NCBI GenBank assembly: GCA_002104985.1
Contig: MCGO01000032.1
Coordinates: forward strand, 62,001-126,000
Origin: Rhizoclosmatium globosum
Lineage: Eukaryota; Chytridiomycota; Chytridiomycetes; Chytridiales; Chytriomycetaceae
DNA length: 64,000 nt
Direction: 5' to 3'
The position numbers were made by a program, and so were the translations under genes. Below, in pieces: positions 1 to 8,783 of this stretch (the first letter of the stretch is position 1; the number at the start of each line of letters is the position of its first letter). The notes beneath the pieces are model-generated. The model ran no database searches. It was not told the DNA's origin and saw only the letters and a program-made list of their open reading frames with translations.

Positions 1-2735
1 GATTCGCGAGTCTTACCTGTCCTCATGAAGAATAGGACTTCACTAAAGAACTCGTCTCCTTCTTGTAACTTCTTAATCCTAGCCACATCATATCCTTCAA
101 ATGGTATTGTTTCAAGGTTATAATTACACTCATAGGTGAAAGGGCTCTCTGCCTTGGGATCAAGCCAAGTGGTCTCATCTGGCATATCTGCAAAACCATA
201 CTTATGTAAGTTCACATGGAGTTCAAGTCTTAAGTGATCACTTAAGCTCTTGTCCATATTAACTCGCACATCAAAGTCTTCCTCTTTGATTCGCTTGTCA
301 ACCAAGACATGATCGATTCTCCAGAAAGGGTATTCCTTCTTATCCAGTCCTTTGAGTAACCAAGTGGCACCCATTTCCTTGGGGTGTTTAGTCCTAAATC
401 CATCTGTGAAGTTCTCAGTCATCTTCAAGAACCAAAGTTGTTCTTCTGGTGTTATAGATGAAGGGAACCTGTTTTCAAAGCCTTCCTCCTTTACAAATGG
501 GAGTAAGTCCTCTGCTGTTGGTGCAATATTAAAGTCACCCAGGACAAAAACATAGTGCCGCTCTCTCAGAGAGTCACAGTACTTCTTGAGTTTATCCAGG
601 AAGCGCATCTTATATTCATGGCGCTCTGACTTGCGCATTCCACTAGGAACATAGGTTGTTATAAAAGCAAAGTCTGCTAGTTTAAGAGTCAAGATACGAC
701 CCTCATCTTCCTCGTTAACAGATGGACCTTTTTCGGTCTTAACCAATTCAGAGTCAAACTTTCCATTCAACTCCTTCCTCCAAAGTATGGCAACACCTGC
801 ATAGCCTGTTTGTGTATCGTTAAGTGAACAGTTCCAATTTGCAAGGTTCTTCAACGATTCAACAAGTTTCTGACTTTTGCCGTCTTTACCAACTCTGGTT
901 TCCTGTATACACCAAATACTACTCTTGCTTTGATTGAGAAAGTGTTCAATGTTATCCACCGTATGAAATGCTGGACTTATTCCATGCTTATCATTATGTT
1001 TCTTCAACAAGTTTCTCAGACCATTACAGTTCTCATTCGAAATGTTTACTGAAGGGCATTTTATACCTCCCAAAGGTTTTAGTGATGCACGGATGTCATC
1101 AACCGAACGGATAGTCTTGTCTCGACTCTTCCGGCGCATCATGCGCTTTGAAAGCTCCGTAATTAGTTGATGGGTTGTTTCCTGCTTCATTTCAGTCTTG
1201 TTCAACATAGACTCATAAAGTTTCTTGAACCTGTTTCCAGCGTACACTACTTTTTCAGGCGTTGGATTGTGATGTCCATACATATAGCAATCTAAAAATG
1301 TTTCGAGTGGGGGGTGTTCCATCAAGACAGTGTTGGCTGTTTCTGCTGAGATATCCGACTCAGTGTCAGAATCATCTTGGTCAACCTCCTGACCATCGGT
1401 CCCACTTTTTTGAGCATCGCCTCTCCGAGGTGATAATGTATCCTTGTTATGGAGTTTCACTCTTGAAAGGGCATCAGCCACAAACTGAGTTTTCCCTGCT
1501 ACGTGGTGTAGTGTGATGTCGTAGTCTGCAAGTGCATATGCCCATCTTGCAAAGCGCCCTGTCAGCTCACCCTTCTTGAAGAGAGGTAAGAGAGCTGAGT
1601 GGTCTGTTTCAATTGTAACTGGCCTATTCCAAATCCATCTATCAAATGAATTGATAGCCCAGATTACAGCAAGTCCTTCCCTGTCTGTGTTACTATATCT
1701 TTGCTCCACAGGTGATAAGGTCCTGGAAATAAAAGCGACTGGTTCCTTTTTATTTCCTCGCTTGACATAGAGGGCACCACCAAGGGCGTAGCCTGATGCA
1801 TCACACTCAATGATGAATTCATCATCTACTGTTGGGATTGCAAGAACTATGTCTTCCTTTAACGCTTTCTTAATGGTTGCAAAAGAGGCTTTACAACTCT
1901 CATCAAAATCGAAGAAAATGTCGTCTCTTAGCAGTCTGAACAAAGGCGCTGCTTTTGTTGCATAACCTTCCATATATCTCTTGAAGTAATTTGCAAATCC
2001 TAGAAACTGTTGCAGTTGCTTCTTAGTCTTAGGTTGAGGCCAATTATCAATATCCATGATTTTGTTAGGTTGTTTTCTCAATCCTTCCTTTGAGATGACA
2101 TGACCTAGAAATGGGAGGTCTATGTAAAAGAACTGACATTTCGACGGTTTAATCTTCAAGTTATAATCATTTAATCTCTGAAGCACTAACTCGATATGCT
2201 TAAGATGGTCTTCTGCATTATCAGAATAGATGATAATGTCATCAATGTAAACTAATGCAAATACGCATTTGTAGTTAGCAAGTACAGTGTCCATTACTCG
2301 CTGAAAACTAGGAGGTGCGTTTGTTAAACCAAAAGGTAATACTTCAAACTGGAACAATCCTTGTGATGTTATAAACGCTGTCTTCTCTTTGCTTTCCGGT
2401 GACAGTGGAATCTGCCAAAATCCTGACTCCAGATCAACAGAACTGAAGAATAGTTTATTGCCAACCAGTCCAAACATGTCGTCTATGTTTGGAAGAGGGT
2501 ACCTATCCGGTACCGTTATTTCATTCAACTTTCTGAAGTCAACACAAAATCGCCAACTTCCATTTGGTTTCTTAGCAAGTACTACGGGTGCTGCATAGGC
2601 AGACATTGAAGGGCTAATAATATTAGTTTCCTTCATCTTCTTAATATGTTCCAATATGACTAATGCGCGACCTGGTCCTTTCTGGATAGGGATACTGTCT
2701 AGGTATACGCGCATTTTCCTTGATTTCAATCTCAT
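1..2735 (-). CDS. pol, distal part: reverse transcriptase, RNase H and ExoIII/APE-like endonuclease
   Basis: I translated this frame codon by codon from about 2700 to base 1 and found no stop. RT covers about 2640-2000, with FCVDFRKLN, the QIPL region and the catalytic YIDD (about 2245). The RT-RNase H connection includes FLGHVISKEG and FLGFANYFKRYM. RNase H covers about 1830-1440 (IECDASG, TDREGLAV, TDHSAL, VADALSR). After an acidic linker comes a complete EEP-fold domain at about 1040-190, with the motifs in ExoIII/APE1 order: NGLR, CIQET, GVAILW, TYVPSG, GDFN, RIDHVL and SDH. The frame differs by one base from the upstream protease ORF, so a frameshift, real or artefactual, lies near 2690-2740. 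Catalytic residues of all three enzymes look intact. The nuclease was presumably captured from an AP endonuclease gene; its role in transposition is unknown. Confidence 0.9.
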   Translation of the reverse strand, partial: MRLKSRKMRVYLDSIPIQKGPGRALVILEHIKKMKETNIISPSMSAYAAPVVLAKKPNGSWRFCVDFRKLNEITVPDRYPLPNIDDMFGLVGNKLFFSSVDLESGFWQIPLSPESKEKTAFITSQGLFQFEVLPFGLTNAPPSFQRVMDTVLANYKCVFALVYIDDIIIYSDNAEDHLKHIELVLQRLNDYNLKIKPSKCQFFYIDLPFLGHVISKEGLRKQPNKIMDIDNWPQPKTKKQLQQFLGFANYFKRYMEGYATKAAPLFRLLRDDIFFDFDESCKASFATIKKALKEDIVLAIPTVDDEFIIECDASGYALGGALYVKRGNKKEPVAFISRTLSPVEQRYSNTDREGLAVIWAINSFDRWIWNRPVTIETDHSALLPLFKKGELTGRFARWAYALADYDITLHHVAGKTQFVADALSRVKLHNKDTLSPRRGDAQKSGTDGQEVDQDDSDTESDISAETANTVLMEHPPLETFLDCYMYGHHNPTPEKVVYAGNRFKKLYESMLNKTEMKQETTHQLITELSKRMMRRKSRDKTIRSVDDIRASLKPLGGIKCPSVNISNENCNGLRNLLKKHNDKHGISPAFHTVDNIEHFLNQSKSSIWCIQETRVGKDGKSQKLVESLKNLANWNCSLNDTQTGYAGVAILWRKELNGKFDSELVKTEKGPSVNEEDEGRILTLKLADFAFITTYVPSGMRKSERHEYKMRFLDKLKKYCDSLRERHYVFVLGDFNIAPTAEDLLPFVKEEGFENRFPSSITPEEQLWFLKMTENFTDGFRTKHPKEMGATWLLKGLDKKEYPFWRIDHVLVDKRIKEEDFDVRVNMDKSLSDHLRLELHVNLHKYGFADMPDETTWLDPKAESPFTYECNYNLETIPFEGYDVARIKKLQEGDEFFSEVLFFMRTGKTRE

Positions 2736-5211
2736 GGGGAGGTACCTTAAGGTGACCTGTTGTGACATGTTTGTTGAACACACCAGGGAACTTCAGAATT
2801 ATCTTGATTAAGCGTTCCTTGATGTCGGTTGTGTCAACTAAATGTTCCAACTTTGACATATGCGAAAGATCAAATTTCGCAATCAGCTCCTCATCTGAGT
2901 TTGCAGCTGGTTCGCGAATATAGTCCCGTTTATCTTCCTTTGAAGTGTCATGCGTAGGTGTTGAATCCATGATAATGTTATCAACTTTGTCGTCCTTAAT
3001 AGCGTGTGGTGTCACATTTGGTACCTGTTCCGGCTCTCCTTGTGGTAGTTCTCCTTTCTGAGCAGCTTCTGCTTCTGCGTCAAGTTTACGCTGAGTTTCT
3101 TCAAGTTCGCGTTTCTTAGCCTCCTTGGCGATAGAGAGGAATAAAGTGACTTGTTCCTTCTTACGCGCAAATTTAAAAAGGGGATATTTTGTAAAACGCC
3201 CTTTAAACAGCTGCCTTGCCGATTTGGCTTCCGAAAGGTCGAGAGCTTCCTGTACTTCGTCTGACTTTGGGTGTTTTGTGTGGAGCATGTCAATTTCATC
3301 ATCCACCTCAATAATATCAGTATCAAAGGTTAAGTTCGAAGCTCTGGTTGCTGGTTTTGATGGAATCATATCAAACTCATCAACTCTCTCCAAATTCTTA
3401 AGCTTCTGAGACTCATCAAAATCCCTGAGTTTTTGAATTGCACGAGGTAATGGATCCAAGGAGTCTGCATCATTGGGAATTTCCTCGTACACATTTTTCC
3501 ATAGGTGTTCTTCGAAGTCGCCGTCGTCTCCGAAGTGTTGCCAGAGATGCGAACGGTCTTCTATATCAAAAACACCTTCCTGCTCACGTTTTAGAATCTT
3601 TTCCACGTCGTCCATACTCTTTGGATTGTGCATTTGACAAATCAATGCCAACTCACTCATTGCAAAAGAGTCTTCCAGTAGAGATTGCGGAATCTGATCC
3701 ACAATACTCACCATTGACATAGCACAACTATCTATATCCATTAGTGGTGTACCTTTCTTTACAACTAATTTCTTCTGGCCAACGTATAGGACAGGTACTT
3801 TGATAGAATCTCGTTCTAACAAATCACTTGTTTTAAACGCGAGGCTCTCAGGATAAATGCCTCTATCCTGCATCTGTCTAAGACCCATTGCTAAACAAGT
3901 CTCAGCGACATCATCACGCATCAAACCATGATCCTTAGGAAATGAGACATGGACACCAATTTTCGTAGGTCCTTTTTCAAACATCGTGTCTTCTGTGAAA
4001 ACAAGCCCAAAGAAAGACTCTGGGTTGTAAATAGTTTCGTAAAACTTGATTGGTGTTGAACGCGAAACCCGTTTCTTTATAGGAATATTCTCATCCCCAT
4101 AGAGATAATACTCATATTTCTGGTTATCTTTCCAATTCACCATTTCATTTTCAAAGTTGAATTCTATTCCAAACTGATCGAGTTGTGGTGTACCAAGTAG
4201 TACGTCGCGTCCTTTCGCTATCTCCATACAAACATGAAGTCGTATCTTCTGGACTTGGGAACGTAGAAAAGTTTCTCCTGGACAGAATTCGACGTCTACA
4301 TATCCTAAAAGTGGTTGTTCACCACCAATCCCTCTCGTTGATGTTGGTCGCGGGTACTTATACACCAAGGGTCTTGTCGGGAGTCTATTCACTAAATCTA
4401 GAGTGATAAGACCACAACTACTACAGCTATCTCCCATCACGTTGGGAATGTCTATTCCTCCGACATTTCCTGCAAATGTTGAAATAGTGTATCGTCGATT
4501 CTTCTTATTCCAATCAAGCGAGGCGTTTCGAAGGTACTCCTCAGCATTCCACGATTGGGTGTCACTAATCCTTGTAATTGCAAAGGAGTCGTCTTGAAAT
4601 CTTGCGACGACAGTGTTTCCAATTGTGACCCGTTTCTTGGGTTTCATTACGTTCCGAAATCCTTCGCGACACATTTCTTCAAGTGTAAAAGGTTGTTCCG
4701 CATATAAATACCTTGAAGGTTTCAAAACTGTCGGGAATCTATGCATCGGTAGTTTCGGCGTCGCGGCGACCTTGACTTTTGGAATGGCCGTCCACGTGTG
4801 TTCGATCGATGGAAATAGTTGAGCCTGAAACGCTAATGATTCTGGATCTACTATTTCTTCAGCCCTAAACACTTTTGTAGTCTTTCCTCCTTCCACTTCT
4901 GTGTCTGCTTCAGCGGTTTCATCATTCGAAGAGGAAACATTTTGAACACTGACATCATTTATTTCAACGTCAATTAAACTCGAATCTATTGTGTTTAAGG
5001 TTTCAAGGGAATCCCCAATCACGTCCAAGTTTAAGTCGTCAAATTTGAACGAACTATTCACGGCATCTACAATCACAGCCAAAATCGGATCAATCTTGTC
5101 GACTTCCGTTCCTTGAAAGGCACTGGGATTGAAGGGAGTGGTTGAACTGTTTTTTTTTGGCAACAGGTGTCGCAGTAACTGGAACAGGCACGTCCAATGG
5201 CTGAACATCAA
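2641..5211 (-). CDS. pol, proximal part: retropepsin-like protease and PR-RT spacer
   Basis: This is an open frame of about 850 codons. Around 4410-4440 it encodes a retropepsin-like active site, VMGDSCSSCGLI, followed about 80 residues later by DVLLGTPQLDQFGI, which matches the second conserved block (I/V-L-G-x3-L) of Ty3/gypsy proteases. The usual Asp-Ser/Thr-Gly triad is Asp-Ser-Cys here. A long charged spacer of about 480 residues separates protease from RT and contains VLYVGQKKLVVKKGT, typical of gypsy PR-RT linkers. The frame ends with a stop at 2641 just inside the RT region, while the homology continues one base out of frame. The first residues of the open frame (before about 5155) are probably not coding; the leader there is read in another frame. 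Confidence 0.8.
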   Translation of the reverse strand: MMFSHWTCLFQLLRHLLPKKNSSTTPFNPSAFQGTEVDKIDPILAVIVDAVNSSFKFDDLNLDVIGDSLETLNTIDSSLIDVEINDVSVQNVSSSNDETAEADTEVEGGKTTKVFRAEEIVDPESLAFQAQLFPSIEHTWTAIPKVKVAATPKLPMHRFPTVLKPSRYLYAEQPFTLEEMCREGFRNVMKPKKRVTIGNTVVARFQDDSFAITRISDTQSWNAEEYLRNASLDWNKKNRRYTISTFAGNVGGIDIPNVMGDSCSSCGLITLDLVNRLPTRPLVYKYPRPTSTRGIGGEQPLLGYVDVEFCPGETFLRSQVQKIRLHVCMEIAKGRDVLLGTPQLDQFGIEFNFENEMVNWKDNQKYEYYLYGDENIPIKKRVSRSTPIKFYETIYNPESFFGLVFTEDTMFEKGPTKIGVHVSFPKDHGLMRDDVAETCLAMGLRQMQDRGIYPESLAFKTSDLLERDSIKVPVLYVGQKKLVVKKGTPLMDIDSCAMSMVSIVDQIPQSLLEDSFAMSELALICQMHNPKSMDDVEKILKREQEGVFDIEDRSHLWQHFGDDGDFEEHLWKNVYEEIPNDADSLDPLPRAIQKLRDFDESQKLKNLERVDEFDMIPSKPATRASNLTFDTDIIEVDDEIDMLHTKHPKSDEVQEALDLSEAKSARQLFKGRFTKYPLFKFARKKEQVTLFLSIAKEAKKRELEETQRKLDAEAEAAQKGELPQGEPEQVPNVTPHAIKDDKVDNIIMDSTPTHDTSKEDKRDYIREPAANSDEELIAKFDLSHMSKLEHLVDTTDIKERLIKIILKFPGVFNKHVTTGHLKVPPHEIEIKENARIPRQYPYPERTRSRISHIGTY

Positions 5212-5740
5212 CGTCCTGGCGTATCAAGACAGCTTTGCCTTTCGGAGATGGCGGAGAAACGTCCTGATCGACCTCCTTTTCGACGGGAACGGCAGGTGAG
5301 TCTTCAGTGTTGACACTGTTCAAATCTGATTCGCGACAGTGACTACAGGCTCCGACGAAGACGATCCAGCGATGATAGGAGTTTCCAAAGGCACGGTAGT
5401 GGATGTAGTGACAGGATCGACCGTATTGGCAGTGACAGGATCGACCGGCAAATCAAGGACCGCCAAATCAAGATCATCCACGTCCACTTCCATAGGCTCG
5501 CGCGAGAGCGACGTCTCTCCGAGCATTCCTTCAAGTCCCGTATAATCCACATCCGAAGTGAGTTCAACTGCATTGGTTGAGGGCTGAGTTTCATCAGTTA
5601 AAAGTCTTCGAATTCAATAGCAGCAAACTTAGGCTTTCCAGGCACAAATTGGACCTCTTTGTACTCTTCGAGAATGGTGTTCGGGTGCTCTGTGTCTAAA
5701 TTCTAAACCACTCTCGCAAAGAGGGGATCCATTTGGGTAG
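5090..5740 (-). pseudogene. Leader / gag-like region of the retroelement, in several frames
   Basis: Three short open stretches in different frames follow one another: one ending near 5594 (KFAAIEFEDF then stop), an acidic Thr/Pro/Val-rich stretch at 5320-5600 ending in VTVANQI, and a Pro/Val-rich stretch at 5090-5323 that reaches the protease frame across a run of nine A (T on the plus strand, 5150-5158). No capsid-like domain or zinc knuckle can be recognised. It may be a reduced or degraded gag, or a gag whose reading frame is obscured by sequence errors. A +1 shift at the A run would join the leader to the protease frame. Confidence 0.4.
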
Positions 5741-5749
5741 TCCATAATA

Positions 5750-7250
5750 ATTGCTTTCAAAAGAATGAATTGTCAGGATTCTGACATTACAACTCCTCAA
5801 AACATAACTGCCTGTAAATCATTAAGGAGGTATTTTATCTTATATATTTTCGGAGATTTGAATAAAGAAATCCTGTGAAACTTGAAGTTCCGAACAGGAT
5901 GGTGGGTTTTTCGTACCCAGGACTCAATTTTTCATCATTTAAGTCCAATACACGTTATACGTGGGTCAAAAGCGTTAAACGCATAATAATAAAAAGGCGC
6001 GACATCCTGTCAGGCCAGCTACAATATCCGTAGCCATGGCGGTTATAAACGGCCTGGGGGTGTTTGTCACTGATTGACACTCAAGTCCAGTAGTAACATC
6101 AATCCTCCGTGTCCAAAGGATTTGATGCGCTTTTGGCGTTGGGCCCCCTTGTGAAACCTCTAACTGGTCTCGATCCATCGACTGGACGACGACAGACCTC
6201 GATCGTTATAGATTTGGAAGTAATGTCCATCCTACCCTGCAGGTCCATTGGCCCCAATTGCAGAGCGGGAAATGTGCGGTTCCTAAGCACGTTAGAGCAT
6301 TGTAGAACTAACAGTAAGGGAAGGGAAAGAACAGGAAAGAGAATAACAATAAAAGAAACAACACAACTAATAAAGAAATACTCCACCTCGTAGCTGCTCG
6401 ACTTACCCCACTGAAGAGCGCTTTTAGGACTAGTGCCGCATGACCTCAACACGGTCTATAGCTCCTTTTCCTACGCTCCGAACGACCAAGTCCAAACGTT
6501 AGAACGTGTCATTATATATGCTCGGTTTAGCAATCCGTGGGGAACTAGGTTCCTGCCTCCGCTCAAATATAATAAACTGTCGAGTCGCACCATGATCACC
6601 CCGCTGTACCTCTTGATCCATGGCTGCACAACTCCCCTTTGACTAAACGACGTCACCACGGTTATTTCCAGAAGCCGTTATCCGGTCCTAAGCGCTTTAC
6701 GGTCCATTGACGTTATCCACGTTACTTTTGGCCAGACCTACAACCCACAGGTCCCCTAACTAGAGATTCTTCCTGTGCCCATTGTACCTGTGCTACTTGT
6801 TCAACACTATCGCTCAGAACTCGCAACGAGATTCCCTGGCGTGAATATGGTCGACAACAGCGCTCACCCGCAGCGACTGTCGAAGGGTCCTTGAATATAC
6901 TCTCTATGCTCGCCACAGCACTTCAATTATAGACAACTTCAATCTTTACTGATTTACCGCTGATCCCCCATAACGACAAATAAATAAGCAAAGTACATAA
7001 AATAACCAAATAACAAAACGTAAAAGAATAAATACAAGCCCCGTTGCCAAGTCTTTGAACCTAGGTAATGAACAAGAAGAACCCCTTGTGAAGTACTTCA
7101 CAAAGACAACAGTAACTTGATTCTTGTGGTTGGATCTCGAGGAATGGGGCCTATTGAGCGAATGACAGTTGGAAGCACAACAGATTTTCTTATTCGTCAA
7201 TTTGGATTGGCGTCATCATGTTTGGTGGTTGTGAAGTGAAAAGGTTACAC
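5750..7250. other. 1.5 kb without a recognisable gene
   Basis: No open frame here has protein-like composition or recognisable motifs. The longest minus-strand frame (about 6099-6452) looks accidental. The stretch lies directly upstream, in the element's sense, of the retroelement, so it may hold the 5' LTR or its promoter: there are A/T-rich TATA-like strings near 5840-5860 and 6515-6575. An 18-bp perfect palindrome lies at 7086-7103. Without the 3' LTR the terminal repeat cannot be defined. Confidence 0.4.
7086..7103. repeat. 18-bp perfect palindrome
   Basis: TTGTGAAGTACTTCACAA reads the same on both strands. It sits about 150 bp beyond the 3' end of the first methyltransferase gene and on the far side of the gene-free stretch from the retroelement. 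Its function is unknown; it could be a dimeric protein-binding site or a remnant of an element end. Confidence 0.6.
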
Positions 7251-7254
7251 AATT

Positions 7255-7958
7255 CTATTTTGTTGTCCCAATCGTTCCTTTATCTGCAACCCAAAGAGTC
7301 ATCATTTCGTCCTGCCCAGCTAGTTCGCCGTTTTCCCATCCTGGCATTTTGTAAAGTACAGAGAGAAATAGATTGGGTTCGGAACAAGTGGATCGCGTCA
7401 ACCACCTCTCCACCAACCCCTTGACACGAGGAAGCACAAACTTTGGGATGTAAGCAGATATCCAAGAATATTCGTCAGAGATTTCTTGCCATTCCGTGAA
7501 ATCTTCAAGGATGAACGAAGTCAAATGAGAGACACCCGCTTCTTCTGCAAGTAGTTTTGCTTCAGCAATCGTGGCTGAAGAGAAATCAACTCCAGTACAC
7601 TTGATCCCAAGAGTCTTGGCAACATAAATGACAGCACGACCGTCGCCACACCTATCAAGATTTTTTGAAGGTTAGGAAACACATCGACAAACCGTTCCCA
7701 ATTGCACTGAAAGTGGCCATGAAAGAATCATTTGGTAGAATAGAATAGGGGAGCTGCTGGAGAAGGTGTTCACCCCAAATCCAGAAAGTGACCATTGAAC
7801 AAAATTTGGGCAGCTGATGGCGACATCAAACGCTGCCTTGTTGAGGTAAGGAGAGATGCAATCGCTGCAACTGTGGTTGGAGTCGAGTAGTACAGATTGA
7901 AGCTTGTCTCGCCAAAGTCTTCAGCGCAGTCTGCAAAGGGAAACGAAGTTTCGTCCAT
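7255..7958 (-). CDS. Class I SAM-dependent methyltransferase, copy 1
   Basis: Two exons, about 7958-7774 and 7651-7255, join in frame to about 193 residues. The split codon restores the SAM-binding motif I, FLDLGCGDGR (HFLDLG ends exon 1). Exon 2 continues with IKCTGVDFS, the acidic motif II, and ends with an aromatic-rich strand (LFLSVLYKMPGWE). The arrangement (motif I, GID/GVD, then V..YIP..VLP) is that of small Rossmann-fold methyltransferases, with some likeness in pattern to the FAM173/ATPSCKMT group. The substrate cannot be predicted. It is a tandem paralogue of the next gene with the same intron position, so the two arose by local duplication. The ATG at 7958 is the first that leads directly into the conserved SFPFADCAEDFG. 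Confidence 0.8.
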
Positions 7959-8079: not shown

Positions 8080-8783
8080 TTATTCAGCAGATATTGTGTT
8101 CTTGTCTGCCACCCACAACGTCATGGCTTCATCCTTCCCAGCCAGTATCCCTCTTTCCCAACCTTTCATTTTGTATAAGACTGATAGAAACAAGTTGGGA
8201 TCCAAAGGTGAGGATTGCAACAACCATCTCTCAACCAATCCCTTCAATCGAGGCAGCACATAGTTGGGTAAATACGCAGCTACCCATGTAAACTCAAGAG
8301 GAATATCTTCCCACTGTGTAAAATCGGCGAGCTTGAACGTTGTCAAATGTGAAACACCAGCCTCCTCTGCCAGCTGCTCTGCTTCAGCTATCGAAGCAGG
8401 AGAGAAATCGATACCAGTTGACTTGATTCCCATAGTCTTTGCAACGTGAATAACAAGTCTGCCGTCTCCGCATCTGTTTTTGGGTGATGCGTTCAGAATT
8501 GGTGAATAAGGGACAATCCACCCTTTTCATGGAAGCTGAAAGAAGCTATGGAGTATAATAAAGAGATGTAGAAAGGAGAGTGTCACCCCAAGTCCAGAAA
8601 GTGACCGTTGTACAATGGAGGAGACGCTTTCTGTGACGTTGCCAAACGCCCCCTTGTTGATGCGAGGAGAGTAGCGATTGCTGAAAGAGTAGTGGGAGAC
8701 GAGTAGTACAGATTGAAGGTTGAAGAGCCAAAGTCTTCTACGCAATCAGCGAATGGCAGTGTGTCTTCTCCGTCAGATTCCAT
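8080..8783 (-). CDS. Class I SAM-dependent methyltransferase, copy 2
   Basis: Two exons, about 8783-8587 and 8473-8080, give about 196 residues. The intron interrupts motif I (FLDLG|CGDGRLVIHVAK) at the same codon phase as in the neighbouring copy. Motif II is visible as STGIDFSPASI, followed by ADFTQW and the VAAYLPNYVLPRL strand. It is strongly similar to copy 1 throughout, with differences spread evenly, which suggests both copies are under constraint. Its start lies only about 120 bp from the divergently transcribed acyl-CoA carboxylase, so the two probably share a promoter region. The molecular substrate is unknown. Confidence 0.82.

Follow-up and report, generated by a model that had tools for sequence, protein, structure and literature searches.

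Non-primate lentiviruses carry a dUTPase in the part of pol that lies after RNase H and before integrase (PMC4531489), and the Ty3/gypsy groups Chronos, Archon and Tat have captured an extra RNase H (PMC5348765), as the available portions of these two papers describe. Complex fungal elements have gained many additional domains through nested insertions, according to the accessible part of a further report (PMC3248453). The introduction of Kojima 2025 enumerates added domains and, in the portion available, does not have ExoIII/APE among them (PMC12440569). The nearest published precedent for the domain described here is a remark on Kuafuorterviruses of animals, in which Exo_endo_phos is "only present sporadically" according to the accessible text (PMC11673190).

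The original prediction for the window (the whole 64-kb stretch of DNA analysed) was that an ExoIII/APE nuclease had been inserted into the pol of a Ty3/gypsy element, and that no described Ty3/gypsy lineage was known to carry such an insertion. In the open PMC literature we likewise found no Ty3/gypsy lineage that carries a domain of this kind; because subscription journals and Repbase lay outside this search, an earlier description there is possible.

Results

The window pol frame and its element

The window was predicted to contain an uninterrupted minus-strand frame running from an RT with a YIDD motif through RNase H into a nuclease (EEP) domain. We found this frame at 3-2792 (-), with all of the expected motifs in the expected order: YIDD, NGLR, CIQET, GVAILW, TYVPSG, GDFN, RIDHVL and SDH. 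The frame comprises 930 aa in the window, stays open at the window edge and continues into integrase, reaching 1651 aa on contig C246. Its reverse transcriptase (RVT_1, 2097-2573 (-), residues 74-232, Pfam 2.6e-38) is followed by a Ty3-type RNase H (1521-1904 (-); PF17917, RT_RNaseH, 2.3e-29 at residues 323-424; PF17919, 2.6e-28), and in PDB the RT-RNase H stretch is matched best by Ty3 itself (4ol8, 262 bits). The ExoIII/APE1-family nuclease then occupies 222-1031 (-), as judged from TIGR00633, PF03372 (Exo_endo_phos, residues 588-853, 4.6e-13), a complete set of catalytic residues and the fold. A linker (3-221 (-)) leads from it to the integrase zinc finger, H2C2, which starts beyond the window at C246:61700-61876 and is accompanied by a D-35-E core.

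Extension of the contig to the left thus revealed the integrase where it had been expected, and likewise the 3' LTR, at C246:57890-58842. Its partner, the 5' LTR of 953 bp, lies at 6150-7102 (-) in the window. The two LTRs have TG..CA ends, lie inside a BLAST alignment with 973/983 identical positions and are flanked by the 4-bp target-site duplication AAGA. The coordinates first proposed for the locus were right, but the element is larger, extending over window 1-7102 and C246:57890-62000. Directly downstream (sense) of the 5' LTR, both the window copy (just below 6150) and the C416 copy (L035, after 1558) have GGGGGCCCAACG, which is probably the primer-binding site. No tRNA or Rfam match was found in the 64-kb window.

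The upstream gag/protease part (2641-5223 (-)) is in another frame in the window copy, where a frame break separates it from RT; the C114 and C401 copies read through. The Pfam scan of this part in the window copy returned no family, and in particular no aspartic protease. It includes a protease-like region at 3364-4476 (-), also with no Pfam match, that has DSC where a retropepsin would presumably carry D-S/T-G. Asp_protease_2 matched elsewhere, under the cut-off in L039 (E 0.0075) and over it in L064 (2e-5), and a CCHC gag was seen in four of the frames scanned. Past the 5' LTR lie two similar open frames, at window 7255-7671 and 8080-8526 (-), which look like methyltransferase-type proteins. 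We regard it as virtually certain that this is an LTR retrotransposon of the Ty3/gypsy kind, with an ExoIII/APE1-family nuclease as a regular extra domain of its Gag-Pol.

Recurrence in the genome

We searched the genome (56.9 Mb in 420 contigs, the window lying on C246) by tblastn and obtained 61 matches. Copies on C114 and C401 are 98-99% identical to the window copy from RT through EEP, and a copy on C363 is 99% identical from a start inside RNase H. In divergent families, at 57% and 45% identity, RT-RNase H-EEP still forms one frame. The elements on C416, C43 and C114 each have RVT_1, RNase H, Exo_endo_phos, H2C2 and rve in a single frame (2225, 2867 and 2839 aa, the last ended by the locus end), and C214 has the same RT-RNase H-EEP-H2C2-rve order in a single frame of 2630 aa. 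We found no support for the domain being an accident, that is, a one-off host-gene insertion or an assembly chimera: copies on many contigs and in divergent families exclude the chance or chimera reading, and the intact catalytic residues and purifying selection described below also speak against it. We consider its probability negligible.

To place the domain across the genome, we used six-frame profile searches, whose repeat counts are lower bounds. H2C2 (PF17921) sites numbered 62, of which 60 were over the cut-off; for EEP, all 74 TIGR00633 matches of the genome were used, weak ones included (35 are over 99.05 bits). We found an ExoIII/APE match upstream of H2C2 at 48 of the 60 integrase sites with weak matches counted, so the window copy is no one-off. 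When only over-cut-off TIGR00633 rows were used, 35 of the 60 sites paired, and every one of these 35 rows was paired. At 41 sites the match lay 304-722 bases upstream of H2C2 on the same strand, and at 39 of these RNase H was matched 1279-1781 bases ahead of H2C2, which puts the EEP between RNase H and H2C2 (the other two, on C124 and C54, have no listed RNase H). At seven further sites the TIGR00633 match lay 1.9-3.3 kb upstream of H2C2. In all seven, RNase H precedes H2C2 by 409-733 bases, placing the EEP upstream of RNase H; RVT_1 falls between EEP and RNase H in six, and the seventh (C347) has no listed RVT_1. The remaining 12 H2C2 sites have no upstream TIGR00633 match, and in 11 of them RNase H lies 256-450 bases upstream of H2C2 (C268:137160 has no listed RNase H).

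The predicted slot between RNase H and integrase thus holds for 39 of the 60 sites, but not for the seven in which the domain precedes RNase H; in the two of these whose sequences were examined (C146 and C368) it precedes RT as well. In position, the likeness that had been drawn to the lentiviral dUTPase stands, as far as the available text on that enzyme goes (PMC4531489).

This census bears on what the nuclease may do. Coming after RNase H at 39 of the 60 sites, the nuclease could complement it by removing RNA, be it the primer tRNA, RNA of the polypurine tract or ribonucleotides within cDNA, and extra RNase H was captured by other Ty3/gypsy groups as recorded in the accessible part of one study (PMC5348765). 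However, the element's own RNase H is present and strong, and we found no sequence feature pointing to RNA specificity; we think RNA removal unlikely. The nuclease might instead shield cDNA from a host uracil/abasic-site defence, or replace a missing host AP endonuclease. In keeping with this, every over-cut-off ExoIII/APE match of the six-frame genome search was paired with an integrase site, and non-primate lentiviruses keep their dUTPase in the same slot, by the portion of the report available (PMC4531489). Such a search would miss an intron-split host gene, though, and by eye an APE2-like exon is present at C113:179074-179415. We give this reading, too, a rather small chance.

Identity of the nuclease domain

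With NCBIfam TIGR00633 (xth, ExoIII; cut-off 99.05) the window EEP reaches 121.3 bits, and all six element EEP domains scanned exceed that cut-off; none of the six reaches the cut-off of the narrower TIGR00195 (182.55). In a comparison of the EEP profile with PDB, 5j8n reached 171 bits, human APE1 about 141 and the LINE-1 endonuclease 48. An AlphaFold model (mean pLDDT 80.7) had 5j8n, human APE1 and H. pylori XthA as its top structural matches, with TM-scores of 0.86 (5j8n) and 0.88 (5cfe) by target length and 0.70 by query length; because the model's alignment was built of ExoIII proteins, which favours an ExoIII fold, this match is not independent evidence.

The catalytic N, E, Y, D, N, D, D and H are intact wherever covered in all 28 chosen copies, among which C184, C62, C86 and C90a are incomplete rows. 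At six loci where the domain is split (C268, C257b, C245, C189, C366a and C411), the pieces have no altered catalytic residue. Between element groups, EEP identity falls to 19-25% with the catalytic residues kept, and the domain is 24-38% identical to database matches over the aligned part. The original prediction had pointed out that APE-type nucleases belong to LINEs. The domain shares its fold with the LINE endonuclease but is not a LINE-type nuclease: a LINE origin is unsupported by the family and profile scores and by the EEP tree. From its sequence, then, the EEP of these elements is ExoIII/APE1-like, not LINE-like; as for its predicted activity, sequence cannot separate an AP endonuclease, an exonuclease, a diesterase and an activity on RNA.

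Full-length relatives of the L035 region were not found among 5.8 billion proteins, a collection in which some eukaryotes are represented. Viral contigs also yielded no relatives, bar one ExoIII adjoining a topoisomerase-II-like gene, a locus that by our reading is giant-virus-like. The EEP profile search gave 406 matches, the best 120 of them listed, under a length limit that excludes polyproteins.

Element groups, insertion ends and integrase

The elements fall into four groups. In group A, which includes the window copy, C416 and C114, the RT motif is YIDD or YVDD. Group B (C383 and C13) has the order RT-RNase H-EEP-H2C2 and the motif FVDD. Group C (C146) has the order EEP-RT-RNase H-H2C2-rve, and group D (C368) has EEP-RT-RNase H in the stretch analysed, with H2C2 further along. 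The RT of the C146 element (L066), which the EEP precedes, is divergent, its usual YxDD reading LQDD.

The three group-A elements just named bear the marks of ordinary integrase insertion, with TG..CA ends and a 4-bp duplication in each. The LTR pair of C416 (1037 bp; duplication CGCT) is 100% identical, as is that of C114 over a 954-bp alignment (duplication GACC), and these identical pairs indicate young insertions. No LTR pair was found in ten other element stretches, groups B-D included, which may miss the element ends. The D-35-E pattern is present in all 10 group-A polyproteins examined, and the EEP is therefore no replacement for integrase. The pattern was absent from the expected place in the two group-B elements and one group-C element tested, in which the spacing, counted by eye from the sequence, is suggested to be 34.

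These data bear on a further role, in which the nuclease nicks target DNA in the manner of LINEs and helps choose or open the integration site beside integrase. The LINE endonuclease has the same fold (the 48-bit match), and C146 and C368 place the EEP before RT, which is the LINE order. Against target nicking stand the full LTRs and ordinary ends of the three group-A elements, the D-35-E of the group-A polyproteins and the ExoIII family score of the EEP. The ordinary insertion ends of these three elements make target nicking less likely, and we judge it quite improbable.

Several peculiarities of individual copies were also observed. In L035 (C416), the long stretch from the integrase core to the C-terminus (residues about 1590-2225) has no over-cut-off Pfam family; by eye, it presumably includes a region resembling GPY/F and perhaps a chromodomain. 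A Chromo match was obtained in L039 alone, weakly and under the cut-off (E 0.029), with none in L035. Between the points that align with window 5040 and 5178, the C114 element (L032/L041) carries about 3.8 kb of extra open gag-region sequence that C401 and the window copy lack, giving a frame of 3901 aa; 1061 aa of this extra sequence (in L041) had no Pfam match. In L040, residues 793-886, before RT, match dUTPase weakly (E 0.039). We rejected an active dUTPase there, as it would rest on this one match; the corresponding region of other copies presumably lacks dUTPase motifs, none being obvious.

One capture or two

To ask how the domain entered these elements, we built an EEP tree of 43 rows, from which one reference and four incomplete element rows were omitted. 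Group A forms one clade (100/100) and groups B, C and D another (98/94), while the LINE-like rows C212 and C410 branch apart at 100/100; a tree of this kind had been proposed as a check, and it separates the element domains from the LINE-like ones. A single clade of all four groups was not rejected by the AU test (p-AU 0.524). The RT tree, which is unrooted, splits three ways, into group A (73/97), groups B, C and D (100/100), and Ty3 with C77 and C399 (85/80). The EEP-bearing rows all lie on one side of the 85/80 branch, which is not starred and carries warnings of long branches. A single origin is compatible with this arrangement but not proven by it. The EEP-less C384b falls inside group A in the RT tree. 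It has a deletion of about 1170 nt and a broken frame, beside EEP-bearing copies 97-98% identical to it, which marks a derived loss and rules it out as the ancestral EEP-less state. On these trees, the EEP may have been gained once or twice, both being possible.

Selection on the nuclease domain

We compared EEP with RT in five pairs of copies, in four of which, the near pair excepted, pS is mostly saturated (0.70-0.86 in EEP and RT). In the near pair, C246-C114, dN/dS is 0.062 for EEP and 0.068 for RT. In each of the other four, pN is higher for EEP than for RT, at 0.12 versus 0.06 in C214-C416 (EEP pS 0.79), 0.18 versus 0.05 in C257-C130, 0.30 versus 0.26 in C246-C416, and 0.40 versus 0.24 in C383-C13. 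In C246-C416 the flanking spacers have pN 0.47-0.48, and this is the sole pair with EEP clearly more conserved than both spacers; in C214-C416 the linker to integrase (pN 0.11) is as conserved as the EEP. Judged from these substitution patterns, the nuclease domain is held by purifying selection, and the higher pN of EEP in most pairs indicates that it is constrained less than RT.

Discussion

Enzymes of the ExoIII/APE1 family incise DNA at AP sites and trim its 3' ends. The RTs of LTR retroelements and retroviruses lack proofreading, and integration needs clean 3' ends. Of the roles considered for the nuclease, we infer that cDNA repair or 3'-end trimming before integration is the most likely, at about even odds. 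Released by the element protease, or kept in an RT/integrase complex inside the particle, the nuclease would act there on cDNA, cutting abasic sites and removing blocked, mispaired or untemplated 3' ends. An RT without proofreading could then pass on to integrase double-stranded cDNA with clean 3' ends. Against this role, the EEP evolves faster than RT in most pairs, and 12 of the 60 integrase sites and Ty3 itself are without EEP.

More broadly, and tentatively, these elements may be a Ty3/gypsy radiation in which an EEP, captured once or twice and at two places in pol, became an in-particle proofreading and cDNA-repair module, one that may also supply the AP-endonuclease function unfound in the host search. 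To our knowledge, no error-correction step is known from LTR retroelements. If the proposal is true, an in-particle nuclease would give these retrotransposons one. A repair nuclease carried in pol for long enough to diverge to 19-25% identity between groups, its catalytic residues intact, makes element-run quality control of cDNA directly testable. The RNase H-integrase junction is also suggested as a repeated landing place, for dUTPase, for extra RNase H and now for ExoIII/APE.

In their RT-RNase H, H2C2 and D-35-E integrase, CCHC gag, LTRs, TG..CA ends and 4-bp target-site duplications, the elements resemble Ty3/gypsy (Metaviridae), from which they differ in the added ExoIII/APE1 domain, in the RNase H/integrase slot or before RT, and in their long frames, including that of 3901 aa. 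Non-primate lentivirus pol similarly has a captured nucleotide- or DNA-hygiene enzyme in the same slot, in the available description (PMC4531489), but the enzyme and fold are others, and lentiviruses are viruses of mammals. Chronos, Archon and Tat share with our elements a captured nuclease domain in pol that is group-wide, by the accessible part of their description (PMC5348765); theirs is a ribonuclease H, whereas here it is ExoIII/APE. Kuafuorterviruses are LTR elements in which Exo_endo_phos has been noted, but in the portion of the paper available the domain is sporadic, the hosts are animals and the RT motif is IADD, VADD or LADD (PMC11673190). The domain here is regular, and none of the RT motifs read here (YIDD/YVDD in group A, FVDD in B, LQDD in C146) is of that series. 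APE-type LINEs also have an EEP fold adjoining RT. In the same genome, C212 and C410, which we take for LINEs, have EEP before RT, no listed H2C2 and scores below the xth cut-off; our elements have LTRs, integrase and a Ty3 RT, and their EEP falls outside the C212/C410 branch. Finally, the domain shares catalytic residues, fold and curated family score with the ExoIII/APE1 AP endonucleases, but those known are free-standing repair enzymes, whereas here the nuclease is a domain of a polyprotein.
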